NCBI GenBank assembly: GCA_009692425.1
Contig: SHZF01000049.1
Span: forward strand, 1-33,553
DNA length: 33,553 nucleotides
DNA from: Myxococcales bacterium
GTDB lineage: Bacteria; Myxococcota_A; UBA9042
Direction: 5' to 3'
The position numbers and the translations under genes are program-made. Below the pieces are notes generated by a model. That model made no database searches, was not told the origin of the DNA, and saw only the letters and a list, made by a program, of their open reading frames with translations. Of the stretch, positions 25,153 through 33,553 are shown in pieces (within the stretch, counting starts at the first letter, position 1; each line of letters begins with the position of its first letter).

Positions 25153-28100
25153 CTACCACACCCGCACCCGCAGCTTCGCCCCCGCCGCACCGCCCACCAC
25201 CACGAGGGCCGCCTTGCTGTCGAGTCGCAGCGTGCCGGCGCCCACCACATGCCACGCGCCGTCGGAATCTCGCGTTGCGGGCTTGCCGTTCCACTGTGCG
25301 CTCGCCGCCGGACCCGCTGACCACCCATTCGGCTGCCAGGTGTACGTCCGCTTGGGCGCCGCTTCGGCCCACGTCGAGCCCTTCACGTCGCCTCCGCCAA
25401 ACAACCACACTTCGCGGTCCTCGCCCGCCCACGCCAGTCCCTTGATGCCCTTGTCGGCCTGGGCCTCGAATAGCGTCTCGACCCCTTCGGGCAGCAGCAC
25501 CAGCACGGAGCCGGCCGGCACGAGCGCGGGCACTTCGTCCATCTCGGCAGCCACTTCAACGGGTACGGCAGCGCCGATCACCTCGGTCCACGCCTGCGGT
25601 CCCGTGCCAGGCAGGCGGGCGTAGCGCCCCACCGGCAACCACACCGAGCGCTTGGTCGTCTTCGGCGTCAGCACGGGAGCCACCACGATGCGGTCGCCGA
25701 GCAGGTACTGGTCCGTGCGCGTCCACGCCGGCCCGAAATCCGGCCAGCGCACGGACAACGGACCGAACAAGGGAGCGCCGCTCTCGCTGGCCCGCCGCGC
25801 CAGCCCCGCGAAATAGGGATAGAGCCGCGTATGCAGGGCACCGTAGCGACGGAAGTGACCGATCGACTTGGCGTCCTTCTCCCAGTTCCAGTTCTCGCTG
25901 ATGCTGCGGCCGTGGTGCGTCCGCATCACCGGGCTGAGCGCGCCCAACTCGACCCAGCGGAACCACAATTCTTCGGTCGAGGCGTCCGTGAAGACGCTGA
26001 TGTAGCCGGCGATGTCGGGACCGAAATACGGAAAGCCCGTCAGCCCCAGTCCGATGCCCATCGGTACCACGCTCGGCATGCCGTCGCCCTCGCTCCAGTC
26101 AGTCTGCTGGTCCCCCGGCCAGAACACGTGGATGTGAGGCTGCGAGCCGAGCCAGGCGGCGCGCATGAAGAAAATCCGCTCGATGCCATCTTTTTTCTGT
26201 TGCTCGTCGAGTAGTTCCCGATTCAGCCGGGCGTAGTCGGCAGGGTAGGGGTTGTGTGCGTGCAGGCACGACCCGGAAGCGACCACGCAGTCCGTCGGCA
26301 GCCACTCGCAGAAGTCGGCCATCCAGCCGTCGGCACCCTGCTCGAGGCCCTTGCGCATCACGCCCTTGGCCCACGCGACCGCGGTCGGGCTCGACACGTC
26401 GAGCAACGTCGTCGGCTTGAGAGTGGTGCCCGCGAAGGTCGCGGTCTTGCCGTCGGCTGTCTTCATCGTGTGGCCGCCGGCGACAGCGTCGGCATGGACG
26501 TCGGCGGAGTTGACGAGGAACGTGTTGTTGTACGTCAGGAACTTGAAGCCGAGCCCATGCAGGTCGGCCGCCACCAGTTCGAAGTCGGGGTAGACCTTGC
26601 GGTCGACGTTCCAGTCCTCCTCCAGGCCGAAATCCGCCGCTGCGCCGTTGTTGCCGCGCCAGTCTTCGGTCCAGATCGCCGACGATGGCACGTGTTCGGC
26701 CCGCAGCTTTTCGGCCACCCGCCGCACGTTGGCGCTGCCGAACACCGCGTCATGCCACGGCGCGAACGCAAACGCCGGTGGCACGGGCGGGCGACCGGTG
26801 CGTGCGGTCAGGCGGCGCACGACATCGAGCGGCTGCGGACCCTCGAAAATGTGGAGCGTAAGCCCCGCGCCTTCGTTTTCGATGCGCACGGTGTCGGCGC
26901 GCTCGCTGCACAGCGCAAACGTGGCGCGGTCGGGTGTATCGAGCAGCACGCCGTAGCCCCTGCTCGATACGAAGATGGGCATCGGTGAGTGCGTCGAATG
27001 GCGCCGGCCGACGATGGCCCAGTCGTCGCGCTGCGCGTCGGTCGGGTGCTTCGAGATGCCATCCTCTTCGACCCACAGCGGCACGGTCTGGCCGCGGTGG
27101 TCGACGTCCCAACTCTGGCCGCCGAGGCCCTGGAAGTGCTCGTCGGACCGACACGCAAACCCGATCGATGTCCGGTTCCACGTCGCCGCGCGCGGCAGGA
27201 TGCGCATCTGTAGTTCACCTGCCGCTGGTGAACGCATTTCGATGTCGGCCAACGGCTGCCCGGCGCGGTCGAGGCCGACGGCAGCCAGGACGCCGCCGGC
27301 AACCCGCACCGACCCGAAGCCTGCCACGTCTGTCCACGGAAGATCGTCTTTCACGTCGCGCTTGTACGCACCGAACGACATCTTCCAGTTCACATCCTGC
27401 CGCCGGAACGCCAGGGTCGCCCGCGCGGCGTCGGTCGGCGTCGCGTCGTGCGGGGCAGCCACGCCGTCGAAAAGCAGGTCTCCGTTCGACCGCATCACCT
27501 GCAGGCGGGCGGGGTTCTCGGTGACGCGTACGTCAAGGCCACCGAGGCGAAAGACGTTCTTGGATGCAGCAGGTTCCGTCACCCCGCAGCCGAGCAGCGC
27601 GAGTCCCACCGCAACCTCTGCCAGCGCCCGCCGCCGCCGCGCCAGCCAGACACCGAAGCCCAGCAGCACGAGAACGGCAGCGGCGGGGCTCGGCCGGGCG
27701 CCCGCACTGCATGACGACGCCGCGCCATCGACGGGTTCGACCGCAACCGTCGCGCGATCCCACACGTCGGGCGCGCCCAACGACTTGCCGGCGTCGAGCC
27801 CGACCACGGCCTTGGGCACGGACGGCTTCCACGTGCCGAGCACTTCGCCGACTGGCTTCACGATAGCCTTGTGCGCCTGGAGCAGGTCGAGCACCTGCTG
27901 GAACTTCTGCGGCGTCACGTACGTTGGCGCAGTGTGCGTGTCGTTGCTGGAAGCGCGGTGGAACAGCAGGAGCAGCCACCCGCTTGGCGCCTCCTCGGCC
28001 TCGACGAGGTACTCCTCGACCGTTGCCAGCGGCATGTCGTACAACACGTCGATGCAACGCAGTTCGCCGGTCTCGTACGGCCACTGCTCGATGCCCGGCT

Positions 28101-29064
28101 TGACCGTGCGAAAAGAACTGTACGTGGTCAGCGCCTTCTGCCGGACCGCCGCGGTGTAGTGGCCGTACGGTGGCGCGAACCCGCTGACCGCCGCGCCGAT
28201 CGCCTCCAACTGCGCGCGCGACTGCACAAGCGCCGTCTCGACGTCGGCCGGGCCTTGCTGCGTCAGGTCGTCGTGCGTCACGGTGTGTGAACCAATCTCA
28301 TGGCCGCCGTCGATCAGCGCCTCGATCTGGGAGTTTGTCATGTAATCCGAGGAGAATCCTGGCCGGTTCATGAATCCGGAGATGATGTAGTGCGTGCCAC
28401 GCCAGCCCATCGCCTGGAGTTTCGGCACCAGCAGGCCATACGCGCTGACCCAGCCGTCGTCGAACGTGACGCTGACGAGCGCGGGGTGGCTGCCAAAGCG
28501 CCCGCTGCCCCCTTCCGTCTTGCGGGCGGCGGCATACAGGTCCGTCTCCAGCCAACCGACCTGGCTGATCACGTGCAGCAGGCGCAGGGTCGTCACCCAC
28601 GGCGGCAGCGCGACGTCCCCTTTTGCGTATGTCCACGTGGCGGCGGCCGGCAGGTTCGCCACTGCGTAGTACTCCTTTTCGACGCCGGCGCCCTGCACGA
28701 CCAGCATCAGCGTGCTCGGCACACTCGCGCGGTACCAGTCCGATACGCGGTACTTCGTCGTGCCGGGCTCCACCGCGAACGGCGCCGACCACCACTTCGC
28801 GTCGCCGTCGGGCGCCGACACCTTCACTTCGACACGCAGGGCCTTCAGCCCGTCTTTGGCCGGTGTCACCCAGCCGAAAGAGGCGATGACGCCGCCCCAG
28901 GAATCCGTCGTCCATTGAGCTGGTTGGGTCGAATTGAGCGCGTCCGCCACTTCGACCGACGGATTGCCGACATCAGCCCACGCGTCGGGCAGCCCGCCCG
29001 CAGCGGCGAAACCCGCGGCGACGCCCGCCAGCGCCCAGGCAGCCCATGGAGTCGCATCGTTCAC
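25153..29064 (-). CDS. Fusion of polysaccharide deacetylase (CE4) with GH31 glycosidase, joined by MYXO-CTERM and lipobox signals
   Basis: The product is 1303 residues from GTG 29064, which overlaps the previous stop (GTGA). A hydrophobic N-terminus (about 5-30) is a possible signal peptide. A beta-sandwich-like region (about 35-180) precedes a CE4 deacetylase (about 190-400: TFDDG near 200, SHTVTH, FAPPYGHY). Cys452 then begins a MYXO-CTERM-like tail: a hydrophobic helix ending in RRRR. Without a stop, a second hydrophobic stretch follows, ending LALLGC with Cys493 in a perfect lipobox. The rest is a GH31 glycosidase with nucleophile Asp917 (GWMADFCEW) and acid/base Asp985 (FWPGDQQTDW). Motifs such as DIAGY recall the sulfoquinovosidase YihQ, but the recalled sulfonate-binding Arg is not evident. 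It may be a single protein with a hairpin anchor or a precursor cut in two. The enzyme families are sure; the substrate is unknown. Confidence 0.85.
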   Translation of the reverse strand: MNDATPWAAWALAGVAAGFAAAGGLPDAWADVGNPSVEVADALNSTQPAQWTTDSWGGVIASFGWVTPAKDGLKALRVEVKVSAPDGDAKWWSAPFAVEPGTTKYRVSDWYRASVPSTLMLVVQGAGVEKEYYAVANLPAAATWTYAKGDVALPPWVTTLRLLHVISQVGWLETDLYAAARKTEGGSGRFGSHPALVSVTFDDGWVSAYGLLVPKLQAMGWRGTHYIISGFMNRPGFSSDYMTNSQIEALIDGGHEIGSHTVTHDDLTQQGPADVETALVQSRAQLEAIGAAVSGFAPPYGHYTAAVRQKALTTYSSFRTVKPGIEQWPYETGELRCIDVLYDMPLATVEEYLVEAEEAPSGWLLLLFHRASSNDTHTAPTYVTPQKFQQVLDLLQAHKAIVKPVGEVLGTWKPSVPKAVVGLDAGKSLGAPDVWDRATVAVEPVDGAASSCSAGARPSPAAAVLVLLGFGVWLARRRRALAEVAVGLALLGCGVTEPAASKNVFRLGGLDVRVTENPARLQVMRSNGDLLFDGVAAPHDATPTDAARATLAFRRQDVNWKMSFGAYKRDVKDDLPWTDVAGFGSVRVAGGVLAAVGLDRAGQPLADIEMRSPAAGELQMRILPRAATWNRTSIGFACRSDEHFQGLGGQSWDVDHRGQTVPLWVEEDGISKHPTDAQRDDWAIVGRRHSTHSPMPIFVSSRGYGVLLDTPDRATFALCSERADTVRIENEGAGLTLHIFEGPQPLDVVRRLTARTGRPPVPPAFAFAPWHDAVFGSANVRRVAEKLRAEHVPSSAIWTEDWRGNNGAAADFGLEEDWNVDRKVYPDFELVAADLHGLGFKFLTYNNTFLVNSADVHADAVAGGHTMKTADGKTATFAGTTLKPTTLLDVSSPTAVAWAKGVMRKGLEQGADGWMADFCEWLPTDCVVASGSCLHAHNPYPADYARLNRELLDEQQKKDGIERIFFMRAAWLGSQPHIHVFWPGDQQTDWSEGDGMPSVVPMGIGLGLTGFPYFGPDIAGYISVFTDASTEELWFRWVELGALSPVMRTHHGRSISENWNWEKDAKSIGHFRRYGALHTRLYPYFAGLARRASESGAPLFGPLSVRWPDFGPAWTRTDQYLLGDRIVVAPVLTPKTTKRSVWLPVGRYARLPGTGPQAWTEVIGAAVPVEVAAEMDEVPALVPAGSVLVLLPEGVETLFEAQADKGIKGLAWAGEDREVWLFGGGDVKGSTWAEAAPKRTYTWQPNGWSAGPAASAQWNGKPATRDSDGAWHVVGAGTLRLDSKAALVVVGGAAGAKLRVRVW
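27586..27711 (-). other. Back-to-back MYXO-CTERM sorting signal and lipoprotein signal in one frame
   Basis: The Cys codon at 27711-27709 (SSCSAG) starts a tail with a hydrophobic helix and four Arg; 41 residues on, the Cys codon at 27588-27586 ends the lipobox LLGC. The four Arg can serve both as the cytoplasmic end of the first helix and as the positive N-region of the second. No stop codon lies between them. Confidence 0.7.
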
Positions 29065-31310
29065 GGTGCAGCCTCGGCAAAAAGCGACCGCAGCGTCGCA
29101 TACAGCGGCTTCTTGCGCTCCGTCGGCACCACCTTGTCCCACGTCGGCCACGCGTACAGCGGCAGCTTCGCGCCATCGACCGTGCCGCTCGCAAATGCCC
29201 CACGCGGCAGCACGTCGACGATTTGCAGGGTCCCATCGGCCGCACGCCGCGCCGCGACCGCAAACACCTGGACGCCCGAGGTCTTGCGCGCATCGAACGC
29301 GCCTTGCGTGGCCGGATCGTCGAACAGCACATGGCGCGACGACGGGTCCGTGACCCACAGCGCGTGCCACGGGATGCGCACCTCGATGAAGCCGCGCCCC
29401 GGCAGCACGTGCGCCAGCGAGTCCTTGGTCTGGTCGCCCGCCCGCAGCCTGCCGCGCGCGAAGAACTTGCGCTTTGGATTGATGAGACCCGAGGCCTGGT
29501 ACTGCGCGTTGTTGTTCACCATCTGCTCGGTCAGCTGAAACACGCCGCTCGAATTGGCCAGCGGCACACCGCCTTTTTGTGAGTCGCCGTTCAGGCGCGG
29601 CATCGGATCGTACGTGGCGTCGGTCAGCACCACGAAGCCCGTCTTGGGGCGATCGAGCACCACGAGGCTCTCGAAGCCAACCCCCTGAGCCGCCAGGCCG
29701 AGCAGGTTGACCTTGGCGTTGCCGGTGGCGCCATCGACCGTGCTGACGGCGAGCGCCCACACCGTCGCGTCGGGGTCGGGCACGTTTGTCGTGGCCAGGT
29801 CGATCTTCGCGAACAGGAACGCAGGGTCCGCAGCCAGCGTCAGCCCCGTCAGCGTGCGGTCGGCGTCCTTGCCATCGCCGGCGGGCTGGAGCGGTGGTGC
29901 GGATTGACTGCCAACGCGAAAATCGGTCGCCTTCCAGTCGTCGCCACGCCCATCGACGAACTTCGACCAGCCGGGGATCGGGTAATAGGCTACGATGCCA
30001 AAGGATTCCTCCGGACTGCACACATCGTGCCAGAAGGGTCCGCGATCGGCGGGCAACATCGTCGGCGTCGTCACCCACGTGCGCTTGAACCACTCGTCGA
30101 TCCACTCGAACACGACGGCTCCCGCGGCTCCCGACTGGCGGATCGCCCGGTACAGATCGACGGTGACCGCGGCCTGCTCCGCTTCGTTGTAGCCGCCATG
30201 GTCCCACGCGGTCTCGTTGACGTGGGCGACGCCGAACGACGACGGCACGCCGAATTCGGCGACCAGCAACGGAATGTCCTTGTGCGCCGCTTTCAGGTCC
30301 TTGAGGTAGCCGAGGTAGCTGTTCGGCTTGCCGGCGCTATCCTTCGTGTTGCGGTACTGCGGGTCATAGATGATGAATTCCGGGTTGAACGGGTAGACAT
30401 GGTAGCTGACGAACACGCCGCGGTCGAAGGGTGCCACGATCTCGAATTTGCCGAGATCCTCATCGACGATGTCCTGGCCGAAGTTCGGTGTCTCGGTCGG
30501 GTGGTGGATCGGGTCGAGCGCCGGCCAGTTCGAGTAGCCGACCATGTGCATCGCACCCCAGCGGTCCCACTCGTAGGCGACGGTGTGGTCGAGCACGCGG
30601 GCCGCCCAGCCTTCCATCGGCTTGCCTTGCTTCATGCGGATGAAGCGTCCGGCATAGGTCGTGTACTCGGCCCACTTCGCGTCGCCGGCCTTGGCCAGGG
30701 CGCCATCCATCTCGTGGCCGGGCAGCCACGCCATCAGCCACGGTGAAGCGTCTGCCGTGTAGATGCCATACGCCTTGCCGAAGCGTGGCGGAATGTCGGC
30801 CTTGCCGTGCACCGCATCGACCACCAGCCGAGTCTCGGCATCGAGTTGTGGCGTGGCGTCAGTGATGTAGTCGCCGTGCTCGATCTCGTCGGGCCACACG
30901 CCCTGGATGAGGTAGACCGGCGTGCCGGCGTGGGCGCGGTTCCAGTCGCGAAAGGTCTGGTAGAACAGCGGCATGTGCAGCGTGTAGGTGCGAATCGCGG
31001 TGGCGTTCATGGCCGCGATGTCTGTCAGCCAGCGCCAATAATCGTCGCGCGTGGCCGCGTGCAGTTCGCCGGGGAAGTAGCCGGGCTTGGCGATGGCAAG
31101 GTTCACGGCGTTGACGAAAAACGGCCGCCAGCCCTTGCCGTCGTGGCGGTCGATCTCGAAGGTGTCGCGATGCGCCCGAAATGCCGCGGGTTCAGGGCGA
31201 TCGACCGGTACATCTCCGCACGCCGAAACTCCAAGCAGGGCGAGGCCGGCCAGCGCCCAGCCGGCCAGCGCGAGGCCGGCCCGCACGCAGCGCCCGTGGG
31301 GTCGTTTCAA
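29061..31310 (-). CDS. Glycoside-hydrolase (clan GH-A-like TIM barrel) lipoprotein with CBM9-like domain
   Basis: The 749-residue product is a lipoprotein: MKRPHGR, a hydrophobic stretch, and lipobox VSAC with Cys31. A TIM-barrel glycosidase-like domain follows (about 45-420), with FFVNAVNLAIAKPGYFPGE, NATAIRTYTLH, candidate acid/base Glu200 (PGHEMDG) and candidate nucleophile Glu352 (LLVAEFGVPSS), then FEWIDEW. The C-terminal part (about 470-735, DWKATDFRVG and FLFAKIDL) looks like a CBM9/DOMON-type binding domain. The frame opens at 31388, but TTG 31310 has GGAG 7 bases upstream and gives a clean signal peptide. It probably acts on extracellular glycans with the CE4/GH31 protein, whose start overlaps its stop. 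The exact GH family is not determined. Confidence 0.75.
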   Translation of the reverse strand: MKRPHGRCVRAGLALAGWALAGLALLGVSACGDVPVDRPEPAAFRAHRDTFEIDRHDGKGWRPFFVNAVNLAIAKPGYFPGELHAATRDDYWRWLTDIAAMNATAIRTYTLHMPLFYQTFRDWNRAHAGTPVYLIQGVWPDEIEHGDYITDATPQLDAETRLVVDAVHGKADIPPRFGKAYGIYTADASPWLMAWLPGHEMDGALAKAGDAKWAEYTTYAGRFIRMKQGKPMEGWAARVLDHTVAYEWDRWGAMHMVGYSNWPALDPIHHPTETPNFGQDIVDEDLGKFEIVAPFDRGVFVSYHVYPFNPEFIIYDPQYRNTKDSAGKPNSYLGYLKDLKAAHKDIPLLVAEFGVPSSFGVAHVNETAWDHGGYNEAEQAAVTVDLYRAIRQSGAAGAVVFEWIDEWFKRTWVTTPTMLPADRGPFWHDVCSPEESFGIVAYYPIPGWSKFVDGRGDDWKATDFRVGSQSAPPLQPAGDGKDADRTLTGLTLAADPAFLFAKIDLATTNVPDPDATVWALAVSTVDGATGNAKVNLLGLAAQGVGFESLVVLDRPKTGFVVLTDATYDPMPRLNGDSQKGGVPLANSSGVFQLTEQMVNNNAQYQASGLINPKRKFFARGRLRAGDQTKDSLAHVLPGRGFIEVRIPWHALWVTDPSSRHVLFDDPATQGAFDARKTSGVQVFAVAARRAADGTLQIVDVLPRGAFASGTVDGAKLPLYAWPTWDKVVPTERKKPLYATLRSLFAEAAP

Positions 31311-31314
31311 GCGA

Positions 31315-32973
31315 CTACTCCGAACCCGCGTGCGACTTCTGGTGGGCGTGCAGGATCGCGACACCGGGCAGCTTTTCGAGCCGGCCACGCAACTCGGTCA
31401 CGGCTTCGTCGACCATCCTGAACCGGCTCGGGTGGTAGGAGATCGCCAGGGTCGTCAGTTCGATGCGGTGCACGATCGGCAGTTCCGCCACCAACCGCAG
31501 GAACGACACGGCGTCTGCGCAAGAATTGAAGCGGTCCTCGGGCTTTTTCGCCGTCGACCGCAACACGAACTCGGCGAGGTCGTCGGGCACGTCCGGCTGC
31601 ACCGAGCGCGGGTCCGGCGTCGGCGCGTGGATGTGCAGGTAAAAAAGTTCGTCCAACGAGTGGGCGTCGAACGGCACCTCGTGCGTTATCAATTCGTAGG
31701 CAAGGATGCCCAATGAATACAGATCCGACCGCCCATCGAGCACGTTGCCCTGGATCTGCTCGGGGCTCATGTAGTACGGCGTGCCGAGCACCGAACCGCC
31801 CGACTGGCGCGACGAGGCGGTGGCGACCGCGATGCCAAAGTCCAACAGTTTGACCTTGCGGTCCTCGTCGGTCAGGAACACGTTCGACGGCTTGATGTCC
31901 CGGTGCAGCAGCCCGTGCCCATGGCTGTACTCGAGAGCGACCGCGATCTCGCGCAGGATGCGCCGCACGGTGCCGAACGAAAGCTTCGTGCCGTGGCGGA
32001 TCTGGTGCTCGAGTGTGAGGCCCGAGAGCTTCTCCATCACGATGAAATGGGTGCCGTAGGCCTTCTCGGTGTCGAACACCTGGACGATGTGCTCGTGATC
32101 GAGCGCGGCGACGAGCTTGGCTTCCTGGTGGAATTGCTTGGCAAATTCAGGGTGGTACACGAGCGCGTGGCTCAGCATCTTGAGCGCCACGGGTCGGTCG
32201 AGCGTGGGGTGCAGCGCCTCGAACACGGTCGCCACCGATCCTGCGCCGAGCCGGCCAACCACCTTGTACTTGCCGACCGCGCTAATGGTCGATGCCTCCA
32301 ACAGCCGTTCGCCGACCGCCTTCGTCAAGAACACCGCGACGTTGGGGTTGCGCTTGACGAGATGATCGAAGCCGTCTTTCGACAACCGCAGGCAGCGCAC
32401 CGACTCGTCTTCTGCCACCACCGTGGCCGTGCGCGGCGTGCGCGTGACGAGCGCCATCTCGCCGAAAAGCGCCGGGGCCGACAGCACGCGCTCGAAATTC
32501 GTGTCCTTCAGCTCGCCGCGCACCACGACCCGCACGCTGCCGGAGTCGAGCAGGTACATGTCGTCGCCATCTTCGCCCTGCTTCAGGATCACGTCGCCCG
32601 GCTGGTACGCGACGGCCTCCATCGCGTCGCGCAGTCGGTCGATCGCCTCGTCGGACATGCCGCCGAACAGTTCGAGATTCGCCCACGCCGGCCGGCCACC
32701 GTGATCCATGCGGGTTTCGCGCAAAGCCCGCGACCGATGGCTTCCCTGCAACTGGGTCCCGGACATCGACGCGGCCGACGCAGCCCGGTCGGCAACGTGC
32801 GCGACTGAGCCGGGCATGGTGTGCGGCGCGGGACCCATCGGGGGCGGCGGAATCGGTGCGCTGACTGGGCGGGGCGGCGGCACCGGCGGCACGGTCGGAA
32901 TGGTGGGCATGAAATCGGGCGGGTCGGGCGGGTCGGGCGGGTCGGGCGGGCCAGGCGGGTCGGGCGGCGGCAT
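31315..32973 (-). CDS. Ser/Thr protein kinase with N-terminal cyclic-nucleotide-binding domain
   Basis: The product is 552 residues. It begins with a disordered Pro/Asp-rich segment (PPD repeats, about 1-20), then a cNMP-binding domain (about 90-210) with the phosphate-binding cassette FGEMALVTRTPRTATV. A complete eukaryote-like kinase domain follows (about 230-490): GRLGAGSVATVF, ATP-binding Lys265 (VALKML), catalytic Asp359 (HRDIKPSN) and Asp378 (LLDFG). A short alpha/beta-looking tail follows, with no membrane helix. cNMP or a related ligand could switch the kinase on, as in eukaryotic PKG. ATG 32973 has GGGAG 7 bases upstream; an extension to 33177 would overlap the permease gene. It precedes the glycosidase lipoprotein gene by 4 bases. 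Confidence 0.9.
   Translation of the reverse strand: MPPPDPPGPPDPPDPPDPPDFMPTIPTVPPVPPPRPVSAPIPPPPMGPAPHTMPGSVAHVADRAASAASMSGTQLQGSHRSRALRETRMDHGGRPAWANLELFGGMSDEAIDRLRDAMEAVAYQPGDVILKQGEDGDDMYLLDSGSVRVVVRGELKDTNFERVLSAPALFGEMALVTRTPRTATVVAEDESVRCLRLSKDGFDHLVKRNPNVAVFLTKAVGERLLEASTISAVGKYKVVGRLGAGSVATVFEALHPTLDRPVALKMLSHALVYHPEFAKQFHQEAKLVAALDHEHIVQVFDTEKAYGTHFIVMEKLSGLTLEHQIRHGTKLSFGTVRRILREIAVALEYSHGHGLLHRDIKPSNVFLTDEDRKVKLLDFGIAVATASSRQSGGSVLGTPYYMSPEQIQGNVLDGRSDLYSLGILAYELITHEVPFDAHSLDELFYLHIHAPTPDPRSVQPDVPDDLAEFVLRSTAKKPEDRFNSCADAVSFLRLVAELPIVHRIELTTLAISYHPSRFRMVDEAVTELRGRLEKLPGVAILHAHQKSHAGSE
31318..31321 (-). promoter_or_regulatory. Ribosome-binding site deciding the TTG start of the glycosidase lipoprotein
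   Basis: GGAG overlaps the last codon and stop of the kinase gene, 7 bases before TTG 31310. It supports translational coupling of kinase and glycosidase and rules out the longer upstream reading. Confidence 0.6.
32915..32968. repeat. Six tandem 9-bp units encoding Pro-Pro-Asp/Gly repeats
   Basis: Four identical TCGGGCGGG units, one CCAGGCGGG and one TCGGGCGGC lie head to tail at the start of the kinase gene. On the minus strand they encode the PPDPPGPPDPPD run. Copy-number change would keep the frame and only lengthen the N-terminal linker. Confidence 0.9.
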
Positions 32974-33019
32974 GGCGGAACTCCCGGAACGCAAATGAAA
33001 ACCAGACAGACGAGCGGAC

Positions 33020-33553
33020 TCAGGCTTCGGGCTGCGGCGGGTCGGTGCCGGACTTCGCTGGGGTCGAAGCCGACGGACCCGGTGGGGGGGAAGCTCCCAA
33101 ATAAGCCGAAGATCCTTGGTAGCGCTCGATGACCTCGACGAGCAGGATGCGGCCCGACGCCAGTAGGGGGATCGCAATCAGCACGCCGATCAAGCCGAAC
33201 AATTCGCCCATCGCGACGATGCCGAGCAGCACGACGAGCGGCTTGAGCCCCACCTTCGTGCCGATGACGCGCGGCGTGATGATCAGCACATCGACGACGT
33301 AGAAGGCGCCGAACAGGAACACAACACCGAGCACCTGCCATAGCGTATGACCGGTCAGCATCGACAGCAAGGCGCAAAGCAGGGCGCCTGCGATGACGCC
33401 GACATACGGCACCAGGTAGGCCACGCCGGCGACCGGGCCGACGACGACTGCAAATGGCACGTCGAGCAGCACGAGGCCGACCGTGTAGACGGTGGTGGCG
33501 GTGACCAGCAGCACGAGTTCGCCGCGCAGGAAGCCGGCCAGCACCTCGTCGAT
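33020..33553 (-). CDS. AI-2E family permease (PerM/TqsA-like), 5' end outside the window
   Basis: This is the C-terminal 177 residues of a multi-helix membrane protein; the frame runs on past the window edge. GFLRGELVLLVTATTVYTVGLVLLDVPFA, the PYVGVIAGALL segment and LITPRVIGTKVGLKPLVVLLGIVAMGELFGLIG with GVLIAIPL are hallmarks of the AI-2E transporter superfamily, which includes quorum-signal exporters and Na+/H+ antiporters. A short Pro/Ser-rich cytoplasmic tail ends the protein. It is upstream of and collinear with the cNMP-kinase gene (46 bases between). The substrate cannot be told. Confidence 0.88.
   Translation of the reverse strand: MDEVLAGFLRGELVLLVTATTVYTVGLVLLDVPFAVVVGPVAGVAYLVPYVGVIAGALLCALLSMLTGHTLWQVLGVVFLFGAFYVVDVLIITPRVIGTKVGLKPLVVLLGIVAMGELFGLIGVLIAIPLLASGRILLVEVIERYQGSSAYLGASPPPGPSASTPAKSGTDPPQPEA

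Follow-up and report, generated by a model that had tools for sequence, protein, structure and literature searches.

A single gene in the window, that is, in the whole 33,553-nucleotide contig analyzed here (G000:C98), encodes a CE4 polysaccharide deacetylase and a GH31 enzyme in one reading frame, with a MYXO-CTERM sorting signal and a lipoprotein signal placed back to back between them. We propose, with a probability of roughly two in three, that this gene encodes a precursor of two products, in which the two signals form a hairpin with a shared Arg cluster, and that it arose by gene fusion. The order of CE4 domain, Cys, helix, RRRR, LLGC and GH31 domain within 1303 residues, which had been claimed in the earlier note, is found in a frame without interruption at the coordinates claimed (Table 1).

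Table 1. Positions of the features discussed. Positions are those of the window, except in the last line.
Feature	Position	Strand	Basis
Fused gene, 1303 aa: signal peptide, CE4 deacetylase, MYXO-CTERM, lipoprotein signal, GH31	25153..29064	(-)	Reading frame
N-terminal Sec signal peptide, about residues 1-30 (..GLPDAWA)	28975..29064	(-)	Sequence reading; one homologue starts alike
Upstream 775-aa gene, no assigned fold	29061..31388	(-)	4-base overlap with CE4 start; beside CE4 in relatives
CE4 polysaccharide deacetylase domain, residues 195-311	28132..28482	(-)	PF01522, E 6e-19; TFDDG and HTVTH motifs
MYXO-CTERM, residues 450-479, SSCSAGARPSPAAAVLVLLGFGVWLARRRR, Cys452 at 27709-27711	27628..27717	(-)	TIGR03901, 24.7 bits
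RRRR, residues 476-479, read as cytoplasmic turn common to both signals	27628..27639	(-)	No other positive n-region for second signal
Second export signal, ALAEVAVGLALLGC, lipobox LLGC, Cys493 at 27586-27588	27586..27627	(-)	Lipobox at same place in GH31 homologues
GH31 TIM-barrel, YihQ-like, residues 759-1085	25810..26790	(-)	PF01055, 5e-41; PDB 5aed YihQ, 1e-74
Lipobox-type MYXO-CTERM gene, conserved in four genomes	L301:3234-6269		Also at L389, L390, L391; both cysteines retained

The residues are counted from a GTG codon at 29064-29062. This start is credible because it overlaps the stop codon of the upstream 775-aa gene by four bases (GTGA). The order of the 775-aa gene and the CE4 gene is preserved among relatives. 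The 775-aa protein has no match in Pfam or PDB and is perhaps an exported carbohydrate-active enzyme. Further upstream, a Ser/Thr protein kinase joined to a cyclic-nucleotide-binding domain is found at 31315-33177 (minus strand).

In the N-terminal half, both the PF01522 domain and the metal-binding motifs of CE4 enzymes are present. The MYXO-CTERM elements that follow are Cys452, a helix at residues 461-475 and the Arg cluster at residues 476-479. The TIGR03901 score should be noted, since it is 24.7 bits in the whole-genome search (cut-off 20) and 17.7 bits, under the cut-off, by hmmscan; we regard the match as genuine though not strong. The Cys, the helix, the Arg cluster and the predicted surface sorting are the same as in the known MYXO-CTERM/myxosortase system (TIGR03901, MrtX NF040593). 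The difference is in position. Usual MYXO-CTERM proteins end a few residues past the Arg cluster (median 5 over all 119 sites read here), whereas the window protein runs on for 824 more. Among the other 21 genomes in the family, nine have the CE4 gene, and all nine proteins end at the MYXO-CTERM, with the stop codon no more than about 20 residues past the Arg cluster. A separate 1954-aa frame (G011:C72:5048-7717) contains several tandem copies of the N-terminal non-catalytic domain of the CE4 protein (query residues ~6-180).

The C-terminal half contains the PF01055 domain and the catalytic Asp pair of GH31. Its best PDB match is the sulfoquinovosidase YihQ (PDB 5aed), with which it shares that Asp pair. 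However, the sulfonate-recognizing residues R301 and W304 of YihQ align with Gly and Glu, respectively, suggesting that the sugar is probably other than sulfoquinovose. The GH31 clade to which this part belongs (window 25156-27588, minus strand) consists mostly of lipoproteins, is spread across Myxococcota and is closest to YihQ without its sulfonate-binding residues.

The stretch RRRRALAEVAVGLALLGC has the positive n-region, the hydrophobic core and the lipobox Cys of a bacterial lipoprotein signal (Lgt/LspA). LLGC falls short of an ideal lipobox but is acceptable, with Leu at −2 and Glu483 at −10; it also follows a short core. Lipoprotein signals usually stand at the start of a protein, whereas this one is internal, 40 residues separating Cys452 from Cys493, and its n-region is borrowed from the preceding sorting signal. 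All 16 GH31 homologues inspected in the same family begin with a lipobox Cys at the position matching LLGC. Both signals of the window protein are beyond chance, since each is inherited from a separate gene family.

The earlier note had left it to the relatives to show whether two genes or the fusion are kept. They carry two unlinked genes, GH31 being on another contig with its own lipoprotein signal, and the pairing is not conserved. None of 98 GH31 loci (flanks of at most 6 kb per side; some contigs were fetched twice) is fused with CE4, has a CE4 homologue nearby or carries an in-frame MYXO-CTERM-like tail; this includes 80 loci from GTDB species genomes, some of them on contigs already counted. 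A weak match of the CE4 gene of G009, which extends beyond its stop codon into the GH31 start, is due to chance, with no GH31 gene at that place. Since the two are separate genes in relatives, the CE4-GH31 pairing is derived and so far unique to the window genome, a single MAG.

The junction bears on how the fusion may have arisen. A gene fusion by stop loss had been suggested; the fusion is supported, but simple stop loss by one substitution is not. Changing one base of GAG483 to give TAG would terminate the first protein at RRRRALA, yet leave GH31 with no usable start. No ATG, GTG or TTG codon is placed so as to provide GH31 with a signal peptide of its own, the only ones being GTG466 in the first helix and GTG486 in the core; CTG474, inside the first helix, is a further candidate start. 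As no start with an n-region lies between RRRR and the lipobox, a mere stop-loss substitution is insufficient. Two overlapping genes masked by one indel are also rejected, since frames +1 and +2 yield no protein pair that keeps RRRR in both. The Arg codons CGGCGGCGGCGG possibly come from either parent, so that a small deletion or recombination at these codons would be the simplest origin. We infer that two once-separate genes were joined in this way, probably at the cost of the stop codon of the first and the start codon of the second.

The N-terminal signal peptide would route the deacetylase through Sec, and the MYXO-CTERM helix would then halt transfer, leaving RRRR in the cytoplasm. The usual topology of a signal peptide is N-in/C-out. 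In the established MYXO-CTERM model, the first helix is N-out/C-in with cytoplasmic arginines (PMC11980579). A first helix so placed would orient the following signal N-in/C-out. RRRR would thus double as the n-region of the second signal, restarting translocation for the GH31 part. Myxosortase would cut beside Cys452 and the deacetylase would be sorted to the surface, while Lgt and signal peptidase II would lipidate and cut at Cys493 to give a GH31 lipoprotein. In general form, such a hairpin would be cut twice, on one side by myxosortase and on its opposite side by signal peptidase I or II. A candidate myxosortase is at hand: 21 of the 22 family genomes each encode a single MrtX-like CPBP protease, scoring ~76-110 bits against a curated cut-off of 180. 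That of the window genome (G000:C129:65905-66585, minus strand; L155) scores 101 bits, under the same cut-off. It adjoins a convergent metalloprotease-like ORF with a MYXO-CTERM-like tail, akin to the mrtX neighborhood reported for Anaeromyxobacter.

The arrangement recurs in other proteins. We read 119 TIGR03901 sites in the 22 same-family genomes, which are fragmented assemblies and probably all MAGs, at E <= 0.001, a threshold that misses weaker motifs. The protein ends within 25 residues at 98 sites, and the other 21 are internal, with at least 90 residues after them. A second hydrophobic export core directly follows 20 of the 21 internal sites, the exception being G015:C69. By an automatic rule, a core with an A-x-A site or a lipobox is found after 17 of the 21 internal sites versus 3 of 97 read-throughs past real stop codons (Fisher 4e-14), a test that counts homologues separately; when collapsed by eye, the sites represent about nine unrelated pairings, eight of which have the pattern. 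The control rates are 3-5% for read-throughs and 8% for random windows from the same proteins. Many of these hairpins have no in-frame start codon at all between the arginines and the second core, so that the second signal must use the arginines of the first. The C-terminal parts are outer membrane (OM) barrels/OmpA or lipoproteins and the N-terminal parts are surface repeats, kinds unlike enough to need different anchoring.

Fusions of adhesin, MYXO-CTERM, signal, barrel and OmpA are also found across the phylum, in families f3, f5, f19, f30, f31, f38 and f45, including a single-contig genome of 10 Mb. In Minicystis rosea, a complete genome from another group, none of 47 MYXO-CTERMs is internal, which rules out a universal rule across the phylum. 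One internal site (G017:C48:3304-3390, minus strand) stands after a PLC-like N-terminal part and precedes a signal-like stretch ending in MAALCQC, which is not a consensus lipobox. Judged from these sequences, the hairpin of two opposed sorting signals with a common Arg cluster, first suggested for the window gene, recurs in about eight unrelated pairings within this family and is conserved across genomes. The accompanying suggestion of two separately localized products gains support from the same recurring, conserved architecture, the cleavage itself being putative.

The window genome has a second internal MYXO-CTERM, in a 603-aa gene (G000:C38:100537-102348, minus strand; L003:736-2547). It encodes an FN3 domain, a MYXO-CTERM, RRRR, a Sec signal peptide ending in ARA and a domain of ~225 aa. 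All 22 family genomes carry this fusion as one ORF, which in one of them is truncated where the contig ends; one genome of another family has it as well. Elsewhere in the class, most families have FN3 and barrel as two neighboring genes. The junction retains 29% identity as against 51% for the C-terminal domain, and the diverged junctions keep the Cys, the helix, the arginines and the second core. In nearly all of the fusions, an A-x-A site stands just before the mature xSPxT terminus, and unfused barrel genes have a predicted cut at the same place. The C-terminal domain is predicted to form an eight-strand barrel (pLDDT 77) that matches OmpA and OmpW. With a C-terminal half that as a predicted barrel belongs in the outer membrane and an N-terminal half that carries a surface-sorting tag, this protein is hard to reconcile with an uncut state. 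In the unfused families, the FN3 proteins (L182-L188) end in CF(V/I)ATAAxG followed, after some intervening residues, by a helix that bears an Arg cluster; this seems to be a C-terminal signal other than MYXO-CTERM.

A hairpin of the lipobox type is also found with unrelated domains. The gene at G014:C158, whose C-terminal part is an SGL propeller, is one ORF across the junction in four genomes. Both Cys residues are retained across its diverged junctions, RRKRASAIGMVLLTMAC (G014), RRRRRRALLVAAVALLGLGC (G017), KRRRSGPAVVLALLAGC (G016) and RRRSTRRSWWVMGALVALLVIAGC (G008). These proteins are the closest analogues of the window gene. We lean toward regarding the hairpins collectively as a general polyprotein device of Myxococcota, in which a MYXO-CTERM and a signal peptide share one Arg cluster, with exits through signal peptidase I or II. 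Such a device would have been made repeatedly by gene fusion, CE4-GH31 being its lipoprotein-type member.

An error of assembly or consensus, by which the MAG lost a stop and a start between two genes that are separate in the cell, is an unlikely explanation of the CE4-GH31 frame. It would fit a single MAG, here in 137 contigs, the unlinked genes of relatives and a CGG repeat that sits at the junction. However, a misjoin must fall in frame and spare both sorting signals, and no insertion or deletion of one base gives RRRR back to both proteins. Other proteins with the same arrangement are conserved in 22 and 4 independent assemblies, and it is also seen in a single-contig genome. We consider it decidedly improbable that the fusion is real but stays uncut, with the hairpin as a mere membrane anchor for two periplasmic domains. 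No sequence feature proves cleavage, and the non-ideal lipobox would agree with an uncut protein, but both Cys residues persist over the diverged junctions of the lipobox-type family. In related designs, moreover, the C-terminal part is an OM barrel with a retained A-x-A site; as long as it stayed attached to the inner membrane, such a barrel could not get to the outer one.

Little weight can be given to two translation products, in which a GH31 lipoprotein would be made from CTG474 or GTG466 besides the long product. Initiation at CTG474 does yield MARRRRALAEVAVGLALLGC, a plausible lipoprotein signal. CTG is nevertheless a rare start codon, a scan upstream of it gave no Shine-Dalgarno match, and several other hairpins lack any in-frame start codon from their arginines up to the core. 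Hardly any credence attaches to a decaying fusion with one non-functional half, which the recent, lineage-specific origin might suggest: the catalytic motifs TFDDG, HTVTH, WMADF and GDQ are all intact in the fused protein, and GC3 is 0.86 in the CE4 and GH31 halves alike.

True polyproteins are rare in bacteria. In the cytochrome b/c1 polyprotein encoded by fbcH of Bradyrhizobium, a signal peptide located internally, behind a membrane segment, is cut by signal peptidase. The window protein resembles it in being one bacterial precursor whose internal signal peptide comes after a membrane segment. It differs in that fbcH involves neither a C-terminal sorting signal nor lipidation, and the fbcH products are integral respiratory subunits.

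The novelty that had been claimed for the precursor design holds only in part. Internal MYXO-CTERMs have been described as rare cases, one being MXAN_5598 of Myxococcus xanthus, in which two surface proteins are probably fused and the N-terminal part is proposed to be processed and anchored (Guo, Haft and Wall 2025, PMC11980579). Proteomics of outer membrane vesicles (PMC4158809) also lists MXAN_5598, as an OmpA domain protein. As in the window protein, its MYXO-CTERM lies between two exported parts, but its C-terminal part is an OM barrel with OmpA instead of GH31. The passages of PMC11980579 covered here describe no second export signal after the Arg cluster, no lipoprotein version and no recurrence beyond 'rare cases'. 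In the literature searched, the near-constant export signal after internal MYXO-CTERMs, the conservation of the design, its two exit types, including the lipoprotein type, and the CE4-GH31 pair appear to be new.

Hairpin precursors would be natural substrates for asking which enzyme lipidates the MYXO-CTERM cysteine, for which Lgt is the leading candidate (PMC11980579). The lipobox type places a conventional Lgt substrate Cys and a MYXO-CTERM Cys on the two legs of one hairpin. Gene callers and models of 'C-terminal' sorting signals will miss or mislabel such precursors. If the proposal is correct, a single round of translation on one mRNA supplies two separately anchored envelope proteins at a constant ratio. 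The coupling of envelope protein pairs in myxobacteria would find an explanation in such a recurrent hairpin, at which one surface protein stops and the next begins.
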